A DNA stretch of 37,283 bases from a virus, in IMG/VR virus record IMGVR_UViG_3300033153_007192, positions 1 through 37,283 of that record, one strand, 5' to 3'. The position numbers were made by a program, and so were the translations under genes. Below, in pieces: positions 7,030 to 37,283 of the stretch (positions are counted from its first letter, which is position 1; each line of letters opens with the position of its first letter). Below the pieces are notes generated by a model. It saw only the letters and a program-made list of their open reading frames with translations, searched no databases and was not told the DNA's origin.

Positions 7030-7250
7030 TGGGCGCTCAAGTAGGAGAAAATCATCGTCTCGCTAAAATGACCGAAGAAGTAGTCCAAGCTTTACGGCAT
7101 GAGTATTGGTGCGAAGGGACAAGTCCAGGAAAGTTAGCTGAAAAATGTGGCCACACCGCCAAAGCCATAAGAAGGGCTGTCAACTACTATCCCTGGACAC
7201 GGGTCAGAGACACATTCAAAGCCAATCAAACCATCAGGCCATGCGAATAA
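7029..7250 (+). CDS. Small helix-turn-helix protein
   Basis: A 73-residue protein whose ATG (7029) overlaps the SSB-like stop by one base (TGATG). Residues about 16-58 look like a phage helix-turn-helix of the type found in HNH-associated proteins: a MTEEVVQALRHEYW helix, then SPGKLAEKCGHTAKAIRRAV, then WTRV. No nuclease residues are present, so it is a stand-alone DNA-binding candidate. The end overlaps the polymerase start. Confidence 0.65.
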   Translation: MGAQVGENHRLAKMTEEVVQALRHEYWCEGTSPGKLAEKCGHTAKAIRRAVNYYPWTRVRDTFKANQTIRPCE

Positions 7251-9094
7251 TGGAATATCCTGATCTCAATAGATATGACCGATTCGCACTGGACACCGAG
7301 ACTACGGGCTTAAAATGCCTAGTGGATCGCCCTTTTGGTGTGAGTATTTCTCTACCTGACGGGAGAGATTTTTACTGGGATATAAGAGAATATCCCCGGA
7401 CCTTGGAGTGGTTAAACGATCAGACGGAGAGCTATAAAGGAATAACAATTGCCCATAATGCTAGTTTTGATTATCGTATGCTAAGTCACATGGATGTGCA
7501 CCTCCCTTTGGAGCGGATGGATGATACAGTGATCAGGGCATGTTGTATAGACGAACATTTATTTTCATATGAACTGGATAATTTAGCAAAGAAATACTTA
7601 AACAAGAGAAAAGAATCAAGTATATATGATGCCTTGGCAGAAGTTTTCGGAGGACGGGCCACAAGAAACGTTCAGATTAAAAATTTACATAGAGCGCCTC
7701 CTGATTTAGTTGCCCCCTACGCCAAAACAGACACCAGATTGACGCTCGACCTGTGGGATTGGCAAGAGCAAGAAATAAGAAGACAAGGATTAGAGGATAT
7801 AACACAGTTTGAGCGGGACCTGATGCCTACATTCATCAGGGCTGAGATGCGCGGGATCAGGGTGGACCTGGAATACGCGGAGCAAGCCGCAGATAAACTA
7901 ACCCCTATAATAGAACAAAAACAGGGCGAGTTAAATGGCTTAGTAGGTTTTGATATAAATGTAAACTCACCGCCCCAAGTAAAAAGAATTTTTAACCCTG
8001 AACAGCTACCAAACGGGACATGGGTAACGGACGGTGGACATGAGATAGGTACCACCGACGGGGGCGGACCGAGCCTAAAAGCCGAGTACCTGCGTGAGAT
8101 GCATGACCCCCGTGCGGCCTTGATACTCGACATACGATCAGTCATCAAAACCAGAGATACATTCCTCCTGGGACATGTTATAGATCATAGTGTAGGAGGC
8201 AGGGTATATCCCAACGTAAACCAATCCAAGGGAGAGGATGGCGGGACCGGGACCGGTAGGTTATCGTACACCAATCCCGCAATGCAGCAGATACCCTCCA
8301 GAGATAAGGAAACAGCCGCTATTGTAAAGCCGTGTTTTTTGCCGGATGAGGGCATGCTGTGGGTAGATGCCGATGAGAGTAGCTTTGAGGTCCGGGTGTT
8401 TGCTCACTTAGTTAACAATCCTGAGATTATAGAAGCCTACCACAGGAATCCTAGCCTGGATTTTCATCAGTACGTAGCTGAAATCACAAAACTAGTACGG
8501 AATGCCACGTATAGCGGCCAACCTAACGCAAAACAGTTAAATTTATCCATGATTTTTAATTCCGGGAACGGGGCTATAGCCGACAAAATGGGCATGCCTT
8601 GGGAATGGGAGACGTTTTTACCTAAAGGAAAAACCGACAAGCCTGAGAATTATGTGACATATAAAAAGGCTGGCGCTGAAGCTATGGCGGTGATAAACAA
8701 ATACCACAGTAGAATCCCAGGAATAAAAAAGCTGGCTGAAAAAGCCGCAGGCGTGGCTAAAGAGAGAGGCTATTTGCGCACCTTTACGGGAAGGCATTTA
8801 CGATTCCCTAATGGGTGGAAAACATATAAGGCATCAGGCATCCTGATCCAGGCCACATCAGCAGAACTGAACAAAGAAAACTGGAAGATGATCGAAGAAG
8901 AATTAGACGGGGAAGGACACCTAATATTAAACACACATGACTCATATAGTATGTGCCTGCCGGAGAATTGGAAACCGCTTTATAAGAGGGTTGAATCTAG
9001 ATTAAATGATCGACCTTACATCCGCGTCCCGCTAAGATTAGACTTAAGCGGGGCAGGCAAAAATTGGTGGAGTGCATTAAATGGAACTAGCTAG
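7250..9094 (+). CDS. Family A DNA polymerase with 3'-5' exonuclease (DpoZ-like candidate)
   Basis: A 614-residue polymerase; start ATG 7250 (overlapping the previous stop as TAATG) or ATG 7241. The longer open frame upstream lies inside the previous gene and is unlikely. Proofreading motifs: DTET (15-18), NASFDYRML (Asp 74), YAKTDTRLT (Asp 161). Polymerase motifs: TGTGRLSYTNPAMQQIPSR, motif A DESSFEVR (Asp 375), motif B with Lys 428, Leu 432 at the position equivalent to E. coli Phe762 and Phe 436 at the Tyr766 position, and motif C HDS (564) instead of HDE. There is no 5' nuclease domain. Being in the same operon as PurZ, MazZ and DatZ suggests a role in incorporating 2-aminoadenine. Confidence 0.93.
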   Translation: MEYPDLNRYDRFALDTETTGLKCLVDRPFGVSISLPDGRDFYWDIREYPRTLEWLNDQTESYKGITIAHNASFDYRMLSHMDVHLPLERMDDTVIRACCIDEHLFSYELDNLAKKYLNKRKESSIYDALAEVFGGRATRNVQIKNLHRAPPDLVAPYAKTDTRLTLDLWDWQEQEIRRQGLEDITQFERDLMPTFIRAEMRGIRVDLEYAEQAADKLTPIIEQKQGELNGLVGFDINVNSPPQVKRIFNPEQLPNGTWVTDGGHEIGTTDGGGPSLKAEYLREMHDPRAALILDIRSVIKTRDTFLLGHVIDHSVGGRVYPNVNQSKGEDGGTGTGRLSYTNPAMQQIPSRDKETAAIVKPCFLPDEGMLWVDADESSFEVRVFAHLVNNPEIIEAYHRNPSLDFHQYVAEITKLVRNATYSGQPNAKQLNLSMIFNSGNGAIADKMGMPWEWETFLPKGKTDKPENYVTYKKAGAEAMAVINKYHSRIPGIKKLAEKAAGVAKERGYLRTFTGRHLRFPNGWKTYKASGILIQATSAELNKENWKMIEEELDGEGHLILNTHDSYSMCLPENWKPLYKRVESRLNDRPYIRVPLRLDLSGAGKNWWSALNGTS

Positions 9095-11393
9095 CGATAT
9101 TAGAGAGATAGACATAGATAAAGTCAGAGATATATCTGACAAGGGAAGCCATGAATGGCGCGTATATGCTGCGGCGCAGATGTACGTCAGGTCCGGATTC
9201 CGGGTTATTCCGATAAGGAAAAACTCAAAATTCTTGCCAGCAAAGGAACATAAAGTAAGCTACCAAAACGCATCAAATGCGATGGCCATGGTAGACAAGT
9301 GGTTTAATCTAGAGGATGGGTTATTTCGAGGATGGAACATTGGCATAGCCACAGGAAAGAAAGACGGCACATTTGTTATAGATGTTGACAGGCACGGCAA
9401 AGAAGATGGAATAGAAATTTTATCTGCCCTGGAAGAAGAATTCGGCGTATTGCCTCCTTGTCCTGTGCAGGATACCCCATCCGGAGGAAAGCACTACATC
9501 TTTCACTGGCAGGAGAACGCCACCAGCAGCACCGGCAAGATAGGAGCGTCCATCGACAGCCGGGGGGGGACCGAAACAGTATGTAAAGGCCATATAGTGG
9601 TTTGGCCCTCCGTGATAGATGGCAAAGAGTACCAGTGGCACATGGGAGGCAACAGGGGCAGTATACCTAAATGGGTAATGGAAAAGATGGGGGTTCCTTG
9701 GGCGGCGCGAGATAAACGTGGCTCTGGGCGTGGTAATGAATATGTCGGCGACAATGACACGGAAACCAAAGTAGAACTAGCTCAACTGGAAAAAATGTTA
9801 GGTGAGATAGACCCCAATGGGATGGAATATGACGAATGGTTGAGAGTCGGGATGGCTATCAAATCCCAGTACCCAGGTGAGGACGGATTCTCCACCTGGG
9901 ACAAGTGGTCCAGTCAAGGGGAAAGATATGAGCACAATGAGTGTCATATAAGGTGGGGTGGACTTGATGAATTAGGCGCAGTAAGGATGGGAACTTTATT
10001 CTATCTTGCTAAAGAATCTGGGTGGGAGCCAGAAAAAGGAGATAGACACAGCAATCCATTAAAAGATATAGTACATGCTATGAATGAAATCTATGCTGTG
10101 GTGGTGATTGGAGGAAAATTAAAAATTTTAAGGGAGAAGAAAGGGGAATATGACCCTATATTTGGGCATTATGACCTAATTGAAAAAGAAGCTTTTAAGG
10201 GACTATTGCAACCATACAAGATAGAGATAATAAACGACAAGGGAAAGATAGCCATGGTTCCCAAAGCAGATATATGGCTGGGGGACGAGGAACGTAGAGT
10301 ATATCCTAATGGAGTGGAATGCAGGCCCGATGGGAAAGCAAGAACTGGAACATATAACACGTGGAATGGATTTAGTGTAGAACCCGTTGCCGGGTCTTGT
10401 GAAAAATTTCTAGATCACGTGAAAAATATAGTATGCAGCGGAGATGAAGATCATTACGCCTGGACCCTGGATTGGTGCGCAAAAGCAGTACAAGAGCCAG
10501 GAGAATTGCCGGGGACCTGCATCGTCATGAAGGGCGACGAAGGAACAGGTAAAGGCATATTAGCCAACACTATAGGGGAGTTTTTCGGCCCTCATTACAG
10601 GCACTTGATCGATGATGCCCATTTATTATCAAATTTTAATGCTCACATGATGGATGCCTGTTTCGTTTTCGCGGATGAGATCACTTACGGTGGCAATGTT
10701 AAGACAGCAGGCAAACTAAAAGGTATGGTCACAGAAACATACCTTATTGGTGAGCGCAAAGGTATAGACGCGGTGGGCTATAGGAACATGATCCATATGA
10801 TGATTGCCAGTAATGATGATTGGATCATCCCAGTCGGTCCACTATCTAGACGATGGTTTGTGCTAAAAGTGGCGAATAGTATGGCAAATAACAAGACATA
10901 CTTCGATGGTATCATCGCAGAACTAAACAGCGGAGGTAGAGAAGCATTACTGCATTTCTTATTGACCCGTAACATTACCAGTAATCTAAATAAAGCACCT
11001 AGAACCAAAGCTTTGGATGAACAGTCGTCACGGACCACAAATGCTTTTAATAGTGTCATAAGGTGGTGGACCCGTAAAATCTTAGAAGAATCATTAGAAT
11101 CTGCAGATGTAAAGATAATAGATATGGCAGATGTAGATGGAACAACTGAATGGCCTAAAATGGTCAAGACAACGGATCTATTAAATGAATATAGTCAATG
11201 GTGCATACTAAATAAAATGAACCCTGTGTCTGATTTTACTTTTTACAGCGATATGAGAAAGTTGGGATTTACACCTTCCCGCCCTTCTGTGAACAAGGCC
11301 AGAATCAGGGCATCGAAAGTACCTTCAATAGTAGATGCACGGGCTAAAATGAAGAAGTTAGGTTATCCATTGCCAGATGAAGATGAGGGCTAA
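9081..11393 (+). CDS. PrimPol-PriCT_2-SF3 helicase (bifunctional primase-helicase)
   Basis: A 770-residue replication protein; ATG 9081 overlaps the polymerase end by 14 bases. The N-terminal primase-polymerase domain shows DVD (101-103), SGGKHY (134-139) and VVWPS (173-177). A PriCT_2 domain follows around 230-310. The C-terminal half is an SF3/DUF5906-type helicase: Walker A GDEGTGKG (485-492), Walker B CFVFADEI (527-534), motif C ASNDD (576-580) and arginine finger SRR (589-591). It should open the origin, prime and unwind DNA for the adjacent polymerase. The same PrimPol architecture occurs in cyanophage S-2L, a 2-aminoadenine phage. Confidence 0.92.
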   Translation: MELASDIREIDIDKVRDISDKGSHEWRVYAAAQMYVRSGFRVIPIRKNSKFLPAKEHKVSYQNASNAMAMVDKWFNLEDGLFRGWNIGIATGKKDGTFVIDVDRHGKEDGIEILSALEEEFGVLPPCPVQDTPSGGKHYIFHWQENATSSTGKIGASIDSRGGTETVCKGHIVVWPSVIDGKEYQWHMGGNRGSIPKWVMEKMGVPWAARDKRGSGRGNEYVGDNDTETKVELAQLEKMLGEIDPNGMEYDEWLRVGMAIKSQYPGEDGFSTWDKWSSQGERYEHNECHIRWGGLDELGAVRMGTLFYLAKESGWEPEKGDRHSNPLKDIVHAMNEIYAVVVIGGKLKILREKKGEYDPIFGHYDLIEKEAFKGLLQPYKIEIINDKGKIAMVPKADIWLGDEERRVYPNGVECRPDGKARTGTYNTWNGFSVEPVAGSCEKFLDHVKNIVCSGDEDHYAWTLDWCAKAVQEPGELPGTCIVMKGDEGTGKGILANTIGEFFGPHYRHLIDDAHLLSNFNAHMMDACFVFADEITYGGNVKTAGKLKGMVTETYLIGERKGIDAVGYRNMIHMMIASNDDWIIPVGPLSRRWFVLKVANSMANNKTYFDGIIAELNSGGREALLHFLLTRNITSNLNKAPRTKALDEQSSRTTNAFNSVIRWWTRKILEESLESADVKIIDMADVDGTTEWPKMVKTTDLLNEYSQWCILNKMNPVSDFTFYSDMRKLGFTPSRPSVNKARIRASKVPSIVDARAKMKKLGYPLPDEDEG

Positions 11394-11397
11394 AACA

Positions 11398-11613
11398 ATG
11401 ATATTACTAATAACCGATAAAAAAGATGGGACGTTTGCATGTACTGGCCCTCACCAAAGCCGTAGGGCAGCAATCGGACATGCTGATTTTATAGCCCATT
11501 TTAAACCAAAGTATGAATTTTATGTTGAAGAAGTGTTTCCAACAAACCAATACGGAACACCTATTTACCCATTCCCTACTGGGGATTGCGATGATGAGGA
11601 TTGCTGGAAATGA
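11398..11613 (+). CDS. Small hypothetical protein in the Z operon
   Basis: A 71-residue protein; ATG 11398 is chosen because GAGG lies nine bases upstream and it falls just after the helicase stop, although the frame is open from 11377. It begins MILLITDKKDGTFACTG and ends acidic with CDDEDCW. The ...TDKKDGTF...RRAAIGHAD pattern matches nothing I can name. Its stop overlaps the purZ start (ATGA). Confidence 0.65.
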   Translation: MILLITDKKDGTFACTGPHQSRRAAIGHADFIAHFKPKYEFYVEEVFPTNQYGTPIYPFPTGDCDDEDCWK

Positions 11614-12665
11614 AAAAATTAGATATGGTTATTGATCTTCAGTTTGGGTCGACCGGGAAAGGTCTTATTGCGGGATATCTCGCCGAAAAACATGGATATG
11701 ACACAGTAATAAATGCTAATATGCCGAATGCCGGTCATACTTACATAAATAACGACGGCAGGGAGTGGATACATAAAGTACTACCTAATGGTATTGTGTC
11801 GCCAAACTTAAAAAGAGTGATGATCGGCCCAGGCTCCATATTCAGTGAACAAAGGATGCTGGATGAAATAAACGCATCAAAGGACTTGTTGCAGGGCAAA
11901 GGGGTAAAAATTCTCGTGCATGCAAATGCTGTGATCCTAACAAAGGAGCATGCGTCCTTGGAAAGAGAAAAGTTACAAAGCATCAGTTCGACCATGCAGG
12001 GGTCTGCTGCAGCCATGATACAAAAAATATGGCGACAAGCAGGCAATAACCCTTGTATCGGAGCAGCTGACACATCGGATGAACTGAACAGGCATATAGA
12101 AATAATAAGCCCGTCCGACTGGAACAGTATAGTAAATAATGACGTTGACTATGCTCTTCTGGAAGGCGCACAGGGATATAGCCTAGGGCTGAATGCGGGA
12201 TTTTATCCGTACTGTACTAGTAGAGATTGTGTCCCGACAAGATTTCTGGCGGATTGCCAAGTGCCAATGATCCGCGATATTAGAATTATTGGAACTGCGA
12301 GAGTTCACCCGATCCGTGTGGGCAATCTCCCAGGTTCATCTAGTGGAGACTACTACCCTGACCAGGGAGAATTAACCTGGGATGAAGTAGGGGTAACCCC
12401 AGAAACTACTACAGTAACGGGAAGAAAACGTAGAGTGTTTTCCTTTAGTAGGATACAAATAGAACAGGCCATCATGGCCTGCCAACCAAATGAGGTGTTC
12501 CTTAATTTTTGTAACTATGATCCCGACGAAGCTAAATGGGCAATGGATAGTATATCAAATTCTCTATTTGATCTTGGGCCTCTTGGTGCACACGTAAGCT
12601 ATACCGGCTGGGGGCCAACCAGGAAAGACGTTTTATATGGAGGAGAGGCAAAATGGCCACAGTAA
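11610..12665 (+). CDS. purZ: PurZ, N6-succino-2-amino-2'-deoxyadenylate synthase
   Basis: A 351-residue PurA-family enzyme; ATG 11610 overlaps the previous stop by four bases (an upstream TTG is less likely). The P-loop reads QFGSTGKG (11-18): the catalytic Asp of PurA (GDEGKGK) is Ser14 here, the substitution that makes room for the 2-amino group of dGMP in known PurZ enzymes. NAGHT (His43), EGAQG (186-190), YPYCTSRD and ETTTVTGRKRR are conserved. PurZ couples dGMP and aspartate to give the succino intermediate that host PurB and kinases convert to dZTP. MazZ and DatZ genes follow immediately. At 351 residues it is shorter than cellular PurA (about 430), as expected. Confidence 0.95.
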   Translation: MKKLDMVIDLQFGSTGKGLIAGYLAEKHGYDTVINANMPNAGHTYINNDGREWIHKVLPNGIVSPNLKRVMIGPGSIFSEQRMLDEINASKDLLQGKGVKILVHANAVILTKEHASLEREKLQSISSTMQGSAAAMIQKIWRQAGNNPCIGAADTSDELNRHIEIISPSDWNSIVNNDVDYALLEGAQGYSLGLNAGFYPYCTSRDCVPTRFLADCQVPMIRDIRIIGTARVHPIRVGNLPGSSSGDYYPDQGELTWDEVGVTPETTTVTGRKRRVFSFSRIQIEQAIMACQPNEVFLNFCNYDPDEAKWAMDSISNSLFDLGPLGAHVSYTGWGPTRKDVLYGGEAKWPQ

Positions 12666-12934
12666 AAGATAGCAATGAGTTTGAAGAGATATGGGTCATC
12701 ATAACATCCATGGCCAAGGCAAAACTATTAATGAATCGCCACAAGGGGGATATAACCACTATCTCCGGTGATGATTTAATAGAAATGGCCAAAGGCGAAT
12801 TGGATGAACTCCATGAAGCCATCGTTAATGGCACCTACATGGAAGTAATAGAAGAAGCAGCCGATGTCCTCAATTTTACCACCGCTGCGGTACATAAAGC
12901 AGTAAATGCCTACAGGAATAGGAAAAATGGTTGA
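12653..12934 (+). CDS. mazZ: MazZ, MazG-like (d)NTP pyrophosphohydrolase
   Basis: A 93-residue single-domain all-alpha NTP-PPase; ATG 12653 overlaps the purZ end by 13 bases. The MazG metal motif is intact: E49xxE52 in the GELDEL helix and E68xxD71 in EEAADVL, 16 residues later. In 2-aminoadenine phages MazZ hydrolyses dGTP (and GTP) to the monophosphate, feeding dGMP to PurZ, and its place directly after purZ supports that role. A generic MazG housekeeping function is the alternative, but the context makes it unlikely. Confidence 0.9.
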   Translation: MATVKDSNEFEEIWVIITSMAKAKLLMNRHKGDITTISGDDLIEMAKGELDELHEAIVNGTYMEVIEEAADVLNFTTAAVHKAVNAYRNRKNG

Positions 12935-13094
12935 TAAATTATTACGGGAAGAACAACAAGACTATTTGAAAAATGAACCTGATGAAGAGTTAATAAGGTT
13001 GGCCAGGGCACATGCCAAGCAAACATCTTCTATGGTAGCTGGTATATTATTAGAATTAGCTTATAGGATAGAAGAACATGAAGATTCAAGATAA
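12927..13094 (+). CDS. Small helical protein between mazZ and datZ
   Basis: A 55-residue protein; ATG 12927 overlaps the mazZ end by eight bases and has AGGAATAGG upstream. It is helical and charged (LLREEQQDYLKNEPDEELI, then AKQTSSMVAGILLELAYRIEEH) without a recognisable domain. Its end overlaps the datZ start by 17 bases, so it is locked into the Z operon and may assist one of its enzymes; that is inference from position only. Confidence 0.65.
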   Translation: MVDKLLREEQQDYLKNEPDEELIRLARAHAKQTSSMVAGILLELAYRIEEHEDSR

Positions 13095-13599
13095 AGTGAG
13101 AGCTTGTCACACCTTCAGATGGTCGAACGCCAATACTATCCGGCAACAAACAGTAGCCGAGCATAGTTGGGCCGTGGCTATCATAGCTGATGAATTATGT
13201 CACAGGCTAGAGGTGGATGGATTTACGCGCCTCAATGTTATGCAATGTGCCATGTATCACGACATCGCAGAAGGAATAACAGGAGATGTACTTGCCGTTA
13301 CTAAAAGCAGGCTAAACGGAGAAGTAAATGCGCTAGAAAAGGAGTTGATTGACGGCATGGAAGGGGCTAAGCCTCCTGCTGACCCTAGCTATTATGTGAA
13401 AAAGATAGTAAAAGCAGCTGACCGCATAGAAGCCCTGGTTTTTATTACGGAAAATGGTGTAGGAAGACATTCCGAAAAAATCATAGCTAATGCACGTCGT
13501 GACCTTTCAAAACAATACCCAGTATCCGACGGTAAAAGTTTTAGAGTGGCTGTGTATGTCTTATTGAATGATATGACCCAAGGGGACGTAATGCTATGA
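13078..13599 (+). CDS. datZ: DatZ, HD-domain dATP triphosphohydrolase
   Basis: A 173-residue YfbR-like HD phosphohydrolase; ATG 13078. The metal ligands are in order: His29 (VAEHSW), His61-Asp62 (MYHDIAEGITGD) and Asp115 (AADRIEAL), with the RW pair at 14-15 that shapes the nucleotide pocket in this family. Known DatZ enzymes are about 175 residues and strip triphosphate from dATP specifically, emptying the pool of adenine nucleotide so that DNA is made with 2-aminoadenine. The position in a purZ-mazZ operon makes this assignment strong. dATP specificity itself cannot be proven from the sequence. Confidence 0.92.
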   Translation: MKIQDKVRACHTFRWSNANTIRQQTVAEHSWAVAIIADELCHRLEVDGFTRLNVMQCAMYHDIAEGITGDVLAVTKSRLNGEVNALEKELIDGMEGAKPPADPSYYVKKIVKAADRIEALVFITENGVGRHSEKIIANARRDLSKQYPVSDGKSFRVAVYVLLNDMTQGDVML

Positions 13600-14012
13600 G
13601 TGAAACACGGCTGAGAAAATATGTCCTAGACAACATAGAACACGTCGGTCATTGGTCTAAGGTGGAGTCGCACGATACCAGTGCCGGAATCCCGGACCTG
13701 AATCATTGCATAAGTGGGGCGGAAGGCTGGCTAGAATTAAAATTCGGCAACGAGGTAAAACCTCCCAAATTGCGCCCAACTCAATGCGCATGGTTCAGGC
13801 GCAGGACTAAAATGGGAATAGATGGAGCCCCCCAGTTATTAGTATGCGTTGAGTTAGATGGGCATAAAACATTTGGGTTGGTAAGAGGAAGATCGGTGCC
13901 TAAATTGATACATGCCAAGACTAATAAACAATGGCTGGACGCTTGTTACGTAAAATGGGAAAACCGTATTCATTGGGGGGAGTTTTTAACTCACATATTA
14001 GATCCGTTATGA
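13596..14012 (+). CDS. PD-(D/E)xK nuclease (VRR-NUC / resolvase-like)
   Basis: A 138-residue protein; ATG 13596 overlaps the datZ stop (ATGA). The core is SAGIPDLN (Asp34) followed by WLELKF (Glu47, Lys49), then RPTQCAWFRR: the PD-(D/E)xK arrangement of VRR-NUC and Holliday-junction-resolvase-like phage nucleases. It probably cuts branched replication or recombination intermediates before packaging. In this operon it would act on Z-containing DNA. A single-domain VRR-NUC is the best family guess. Confidence 0.8.
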   Translation: MSETRLRKYVLDNIEHVGHWSKVESHDTSAGIPDLNHCISGAEGWLELKFGNEVKPPKLRPTQCAWFRRRTKMGIDGAPQLLVCVELDGHKTFGLVRGRSVPKLIHAKTNKQWLDACYVKWENRIHWGEFLTHILDPL

Positions 14013-14371
14013 GCGCTAGACCTAGAAAATTAGAGTCGGTAACTTACCAAGTATATGTGCCCCCTATTGATGAAACTTTATTCATCATCATATCAGAGGA
14101 AAAAGGCAAGATCCGAGAATTATTTATTAATTCTGATCATGTGGACTCTTACCCTTGGATAAGTTATTTAACTAGAACTGTTAGTAAAAGACTTCAACAA
14201 GAAGAGTCCATAGAACTTCTCATTGATGAAATGAAAGAAACATATGATACAAACGGAGGCTATGTGATTCCTAAATCAGGCAATGTCCACGTTAATAGTG
14301 TAGTTGGCCATATAGCCTGGGTAGTCGAACAACATCAAGCCGCACAAATACACTCACACCAGACCAAATAA
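14009..14371 (+). CDS. TSCPD-domain protein
   Basis: A 120-residue protein starting at ATG 14009, overlapping the nuclease stop (ATGA); a longer upstream frame is a shadow. The layout (ETLFIIISEEKGKIRELFI, then WISYLTRTVSKRL, IELLIDEMK, and NGGYVIPKSGNVHVNSVVG) fits the TSCPD domain found at the end of some ribonucleotide reductases and alone in phages. Stand-alone copies may touch nucleotide metabolism, which suits its place as last gene of the Z operon, but no activity is established. Transcription converges here with the late genes. Confidence 0.7.
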   Translation: MSARPRKLESVTYQVYVPPIDETLFIIISEEKGKIRELFINSDHVDSYPWISYLTRTVSKRLQQEESIELLIDEMKETYDTNGGYVIPKSGNVHVNSVVGHIAWVVEQHQAAQIHSHQTK

Positions 14372-37051: not shown

Positions 37052-37248
37052 TAGACACCTACCCAAAAGCATTAAGAGTAATCAATAGTTGCATTCTCCC
37101 CGGACAACTGCACACCGCATCAAGGTTCGTGGGCCGCGCAACTTCTCGGGGGCATCTTAAACCGATCGAAGGCGAAGTATTGCAGGAACTGTGCTTGGCG
37201 CGGGAACGCATGATGCTAGAAACTAAAACGGGAATAAAACGGGAATAA
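37048..37248 (+). CDS. Hypothetical protein running across the circle junction
   Basis: A 66-residue protein starting at GTG 37048, overlapping the previous stop by four bases. It has INSCILPGQLHTASRFV and a helical C-terminus (EGEVLQELCLARERMMLE). The last residues are encoded in the ACGGGAATAAA repeat, and the same 3' end appears at 1-79, so the gene is intact in the circular molecule. Function unknown. Confidence 0.65.
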   Translation: MIDTYPKALRVINSCILPGQLHTASRFVGRATSRGHLKPIEGEVLQELCLARERMMLETKTGIKRE

Positions 37249-37283
37249 AACGGGAATAAAATGGTAAGGAAAACGGGAATAAA
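37170..37283. repeat. Terminal direct repeat, right copy
   Basis: Exact copy of bases 1-114. Joining the two copies makes the small rightward genes at 35.4-37.2 kb continuous with those at 0.1-14.4 kb, so the early region is a single block in the native molecule. With a P22-like terminase and portal, circular permutation by headful packaging is the likely cause, but a true short terminal repeat cannot be excluded from the sequence alone. Confidence 0.95.

Follow-up and report, generated by a model that had tools for sequence, protein, structure and literature searches.

Gene content of the locus and of the genome

The window, which is the whole stretch of DNA that was analysed, comprises the 37,283 bases of a virus record. 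The following genes, among them candidate genes for the replacement of adenine (A) by 2-aminoadenine (Z), were identified in it:

7145–9094, plus strand: dpoZ, family A DNA polymerase of the phiVC8 DpoZ type; the start may be 7241
9081–11393, plus strand: primase-polymerase/helicase (PF09250, PF08707, PF19263)
11610–12665, plus strand: purZ, 2-amino adenylosuccinate synthetase, 351 aa, ATG at 11610 (NF038379, 6fm1, tree)
12653–12934, plus strand: mazZ, MazZ-2 type, MazG-like nucleotide pyrophosphohydrolase, predicted to convert dGTP to dGMP, 93 aa (PF01503)
12927–13094, plus strand: small ORF between mazZ and datZ, 55 aa (62 aa from a start at 12906), overlapping both
13078–13599, plus strand: datZ, HD-domain dATP triphosphohydrolase, 173 aa (phrog_7076, 6zpa)
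13596–14012, plus strand: small nuclease-like protein after datZ (phrog_2165, E 6e-17)
14009–14371, plus strand: stand-alone TSCPD-domain protein, 120 aa (PF12637, E 4e-4, just below the cut-off)

The genes are intact, and purZ, mazZ and datZ lie where a preliminary description had placed them. The three had been described as overlapping; mazZ and datZ do not touch each other, yet the genes form one continuous overlapping run because the small ORF overlaps both neighbours. Position 12927 is the best start of this ORF, with the ribosome-binding-like sequence AGGAATAGG upstream of the ATG; no homologue of its 62-aa version was found in a single-sequence scan of IMG/VR or in the Z loci examined. 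The triad had also been called complete, which holds for purZ, mazZ and datZ and omits dpoZ at 7145–9094. Vibrio phage phiVC8 and Alteromonas phage ZP6 have their genes in the same order (DpoZ, primase, PurZ, MazZ, DatZ, nuclease), and in both the primase-polymerase/helicase occupies the same place between dpoZ and purZ.

The operon-like run extends past datZ into the nuclease gene, which also follows datZ in relatives and occurs in most Z loci examined, and then into the gene for the TSCPD protein, which is translationally coupled to it (ATG at 14009, ATGA, 4-base overlap). The TSCPD protein resembles class II ribonucleotide reductases of roseophages in their C-terminal part and may hint at an alphaproteobacterial host. 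It was present in none of the other Z loci examined, no close relatives were detected in a single-sequence scan of IMG/VR, and relatives of the phage carry a DUF6378 protein in its place. Promoter- and terminator-like sites between 5700 and 15200 occur at the shuffled level, and therefore no promoter is claimed.

The replication module is on the plus strand, and the late module on the minus strand includes the genes for terminase, portal, scaffold and the major capsid protein. Both ends carry the same 114 bases (1–114 and 37170–37283, an exact direct repeat), so that this is probably a complete podovirus genome. Short repeats, AAAACGGGAATA, are seen inside the terminal repeat. No integrase was found among the window proteins scanned, a subset of the ORFs, and a lytic phiVC8/ZP6-like podovirus infecting bacteria is the best explanation of the virus type. 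Megablast of the first 25 kb against phage records gave no match. A protein with a RyR domain (1590–1958; PF02026, 42.8 bits), unusual for a small phage, is encoded elsewhere in the genome.

The synthetase, the polymerase and the supply of dGMP

The synthetase scored 341 bits against the curated PurZ model NF038379 of NCBIfam (cut-off 300), while the NCBIfam PurA equivalog models remained far under their cut-offs (TIGR00184: 87 vs 396 bits). The closest solved structures are phiVC8 PurZ (6fm1, E 4.5e-112) and S-2L PurZ (7odx). Ser14 replaces the catalytic Asp13 of PurA, as had been noticed from the sequence earlier, and is invariant in 10 aligned PurZ proteins. Mapping of the S-2L pocket residues given in PMC8342488 through the alignment revealed that Ser14, the dGMP pocket, Val237 near the ribose, the TTVT tip, Arg274 and the ATP-stacking Phe300 and Pro336 are kept. 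S14, V237, the T267–T270 tip, R274, N299, F300, N302 and other pocket residues are those of phiVC8, including the Asn at residue 302. The sole pocket difference from phiVC8 is Ser126 for Gly126, with Gly also present in S-2L and Ser also present in ZP6.

Tree placement had been proposed as a check on this assignment. A maximum-likelihood tree of 98 rows, with no archaeal PurA among them, nested the synthetase among the PurZ proteins, a group split from PurZ0 and from E. coli PurA with support of 98/95. Within this group it sits on a long branch and belongs to a clade of 25 rows (support 100/94) that also contains ZP6, Burkholderia phage Bm1 and Stenotrophomonas phage BUCT555. The synthetase is thus supported as a PurZ, predicted to use dGMP, aspartate and ATP. 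It does match the PurA Pfam family, as would be expected of a captured PurA that makes adenylosuccinate from IMP amid nucleotide housekeeping genes in a phage with ordinary DNA. Such an origin is, however, highly improbable given the serine at the catalytic position, the scores against the PurA and PurZ models, the place in the tree, and the DpoZ and DatZ alongside.

The frame at 7145–9094 (649 codons) scored 894 bits against NCBIfam model NF038380 (cut-off 500), and its best solved relative is the phiVC8 enzyme (7pbk, E 3e-226). L467, F471 and G565 correspond to phiVC8 L455, F459 and G548, which are signatures of the DpoZ clade (PMC8599892), and the exonuclease residues D50, E52 and D109 are present; both the Leu, Phe, Gly signature and the exonuclease triad of the phiVC8 type are therefore found. 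The protein is a DpoZ, predicted to be a 2-aminoadenine-selective polymerase. Nearly all published signature residues of PurZ and DpoZ are kept.

The 93-aa product of mazZ matches PF01503 with 26 bits, above the cut-off of that model, and is 44–48% identical to the MazZ-2 proteins of phiVC8, ZP6 and Vibrio phages. A tblastn search of 50,697 phage records with this protein returned 40 matching records (E about 1e-16), all of them Vibrio or Alteromonas Z-phages, and MazZ-2 relatives in the phage records are confined to phages with purZ. The MazG metal motif reported earlier is indeed intact, with E49xxE52 and E68xxD71 (EEAAD). These four acidic residues and a YRxRK motif are invariant in 11 MazZ-2 sequences. 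R88 or R90 of the latter provides the counterpart of S-2L R83, and the gene has the position between purZ and datZ that belongs, with these residues, to the MazZ-2 type as defined in PMC8342488.

The preliminary description had MazZ producing dGMP. The MazG-type enzyme is there, but MazZ-2 has no BLAST-detectable similarity to the characterised MazZ-1 of S-2L (PMC8342488), and so its dGTPase activity is a prediction. No assayed or solved MazZ-2 member was found, and the PDB returned no match to the MazZ-2 sequence. A predicted model (pLDDT 87), compared with known structures in view of the all-alpha NTP-pyrophosphatase (MazG) fold expected for the type, has three helices and found weak matches in the fold search, the best being 2p06 (AF_0060) with Z 9.7 and the others near the helical-bundle background.

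A profile scan of IMG/VR revealed at least 580 relatives of PurZ, and 80 loci were kept for comparison; a scan with the single PurZ sequence found no close relatives, although here, as in the other single-sequence scans, the records nearest to the window may be missing from the set scanned. MazZ-1, MazZ-2 or DUF5664 was recognised with home-made profiles in 76 of the 80 loci, so a dGMP-supplying enzyme appears to accompany PurZ nearly always. In all ten phages of PMC8342488 mazZ lies between purZ and datZ. With the same home-made profiles, and checked with the Pfam model PF18909, DUF5664 was found in nine of the 13 purZ loci that have no MazZ. In nine loci (L013, L014, L016, L019, L025, L029, L039, L042 and L047) datZ directly follows purZ, DUF5664 (PF18909) is present and the contig has no match to the MazZ-2/MazG family. 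DUF5664 enzymes hydrolyse dATP and dGTP (PMC12884076), and both this finding and the distribution of DUF5664 are in line with a requirement of PurZ for a phage enzyme that supplies dGMP.

Several loci depart from the common arrangement. L061, L075 and L089 have PurZ, DpoZ and DatZ with a gap of some 300–400 bases between purZ and datZ, and neither MazZ nor DUF5664 was recognised in them. The contigs without MazZ and DUF5664 gave no match to DUF550 (PF04447), in a search that matched nothing anywhere and therefore carries no weight. L020, a contig of 119,931 bases, has PurZ with no DpoZ, MazZ or DatZ in the 15 kb around it, which sets it apart from nearly all the others. L096 and L098 are PurZ-like genes in alphaproteobacterial/proteobacterial genome contigs (994 kb in the case of L098) with no neighbouring DatZ, MazZ or DpoZ; they form a sister pair near the PurZ base in the tree and are possibly prophage or chromosomal PurZ.

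DatZ and its base pocket

DatZ matched the PHROG dATP triphosphohydrolase family phrog_7076 with E 8e-26 and, in a sequence search, the S-2L DatZ structure 6zpa with E 1e-9. The predicted model has 6zpa as its top PDB match (Z 20.9, rmsd 2.2 over 166 residues), which places the protein in the DatZ fold. The HD ligands H29, H61, D62 and D115, already pointed out in the preliminary description, are all present, and so is the whole set of metal and phosphate ligands: R14, H29, H61, D62, E65, D70, K76, K112 and D115. All residues expected of a DatZ by S-2L numbering (the HD metal ligands, E70, D75, R19, K81 and K116) are thereby accounted for.

The base pocket differs. Of the pocket positions W20, I22 and P79 of S-2L, the first is kept (W15) and V74 is as in phiVC8, but the Ile22 position is occupied by Asn17, a non-conservative replacement. 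Since the segment from Trp15 to His29 aligns without gaps, the register of Asn17 is firm. Across the alignment of 85 DatZ sequences, I occurs here in 61, M in 13, L in six, V in three, T in one and N in one, the window.

A scan of all IMG/VR with a degenerate DNA pattern, which fixes Gln24 and Ala-Glu-His and so misses Asn variants with other flanks, found one further DatZ of the Asn type. It lies in L106 (9337–9933, minus strand) beside PurZ and DpoZ and is 32% identical overall to the window DatZ. The TIRQQTVAEHS stretch with the Asn is otherwise similar in the two proteins; as Asn recurs in such a stretch of a second Z-phage, a sequencing error is a less probable, though still conceivable, origin of Asn17.

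Asn17 likely changes the base pocket. In E. coli YfbR the aligned residue is aliphatic (Leu), yet the enzyme acts on several deoxynucleotides, which argues that this residue alone does not set specificity. In S-2L DatZ, Ile22 sterically keeps out the 2-amino group, and the I22A variant has lowered dATPase activity, a detectable but very low dZTPase activity and no dGTPase activity (PMC8065100). Conservation of the pocket residues is a trend among homologues and not a rule of membership (PMC8065100), and for this reason we keep the assignment as DatZ, with a putative substrate specificity. Of the earlier statement that DatZ destroys dATP, the catalytic part agrees with the residues found; the base specificity is put in question by the change from Ile22 to Asn.

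These observations bear on a variant of the same Z-phage in which the specificity of DatZ is relaxed or shifted: Asn17 would admit the 2-amino group, selectivity for dATP would be weaker, and replacement of A would be incomplete or would depend mainly on DpoZ. The firmly aligned Asn, its recurrence in L106 and the lowered dATPase and detectable dZTPase of I22A speak for this variant, which we nevertheless hold to be rather unlikely, as all catalytic residues are kept, YfbR is aliphatic at this position and I22A gained only a very low dZTPase and no dGTPase. More speculatively still, the Asn-gated DatZ proteins of the window and L106 might use their amide for a novel recognition of the base edge, tolerating 2-aminopurines or rejecting them otherwise. 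Depletion of dATP and sparing of dZTP would then be rebalanced relative to S-2L, with more of the selectivity resting on DpoZ and possibly with the TSCPD protein shifting precursor supply.

Probable replacement of A by Z in the phage DNA

Family models, solved-structure relatives, residue tests, gene order and the PurZ tree support a Z-cluster of the phiVC8 kind. We consider the window to be a phiVC8/ZP6-like podovirus with a complete 2-aminoadenine module and a genome that carries Z in place of A, with a probability of about 93%. That the phage DNA very likely carries Z for A is the best reading because the PurZ and DpoZ models score above their curated exception-level cut-offs, the signature residues are kept and gene order and tree agree; the presence of DpoZ strengthens the case for Z in the DNA itself. 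No support was found for a degenerate relic of such a module or for a fortuitous succession of ORFs, a reading that has a negligible probability and is contradicted by the sequence. All frames are open and tightly overlapping, the active sites are intact, and the module is accompanied by terminase, portal, scaffold and capsid genes in a genome with a 114-base terminal repeat. With 341 bits for the PurZ model, E 8e-26 for phrog_7076 and E about 1e-16 for MazZ-2, the three genes are far beyond chance.

We infer the reactions of the module from characterised homologues and published Z chemistry (PMC8342488, PMC8065100, PMC8599892, PMC12884076). MazZ-2 would cut dGTP to dGMP, which PurZ, with ATP, would join to aspartate to give N6-succino-2-amino-dAMP. 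Host PurB and kinases, which are not encoded by the phage and are assumed to be supplied by the host, would convert this intermediate to dZTP. DatZ would strip dATP to dA, and DpoZ would prefer dZTP over dATP, through which preference Z would replace A in the genome. The resulting DNA is predicted to resist restriction enzymes that read adenine, a resistance that has been reported for Z-containing DNA.

Among known systems, phiVC8 (Enhodamvirus) has the same genes in the same order and the same MazZ-2 type, with identities of 56% for PurZ, 57% for DpoZ, 48–50% for MazZ and 35% for DatZ. The window differs from it by the extra small ORF between mazZ and datZ, by Asn17 of DatZ (Leu in phiVC8) and by the TSCPD protein. 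ZP6 (Mareflavirus) shares the gene order and the 25-row PurZ clade, and its PurZ is about 52% identical to that of the window. Cyanophage S-2L has the purZ-mazZ-datZ triad and the DatZ fold in common with the window, whereas it has Ile22 in DatZ, MazZ-1 and a non-selective PrimPol and no DpoZ (PMC8342488), in place of Asn17, MazZ-2 and DpoZ. The PurZ0 systems of Arthrobacter, Microbacterium and Streptomyces phages form a clade separate from the window PurZ. In Bennie and Goodman the PurZ-like synthetase lies near PolA; deoxyuridine triphosphatase-like genes occur in Bennie, Goodman and Galactica, whose compared stretch has no annotated DatZ or MazZ.

The Z system has been known since 2021 and is already well described, and the window is a new, rather distant member of the phiVC8-like Z-phages. 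The phages for which a four-letter alphabet with Z in place of A is predicted thereby gain a genome that is probably complete and whose PurZ sits on a long branch. Its DatZ with Asn17 is a naturally occurring equivalent of the I22A variant engineered in S-2L DatZ and so offers a direct test of how Z-phages spare dZTP while removing dATP.
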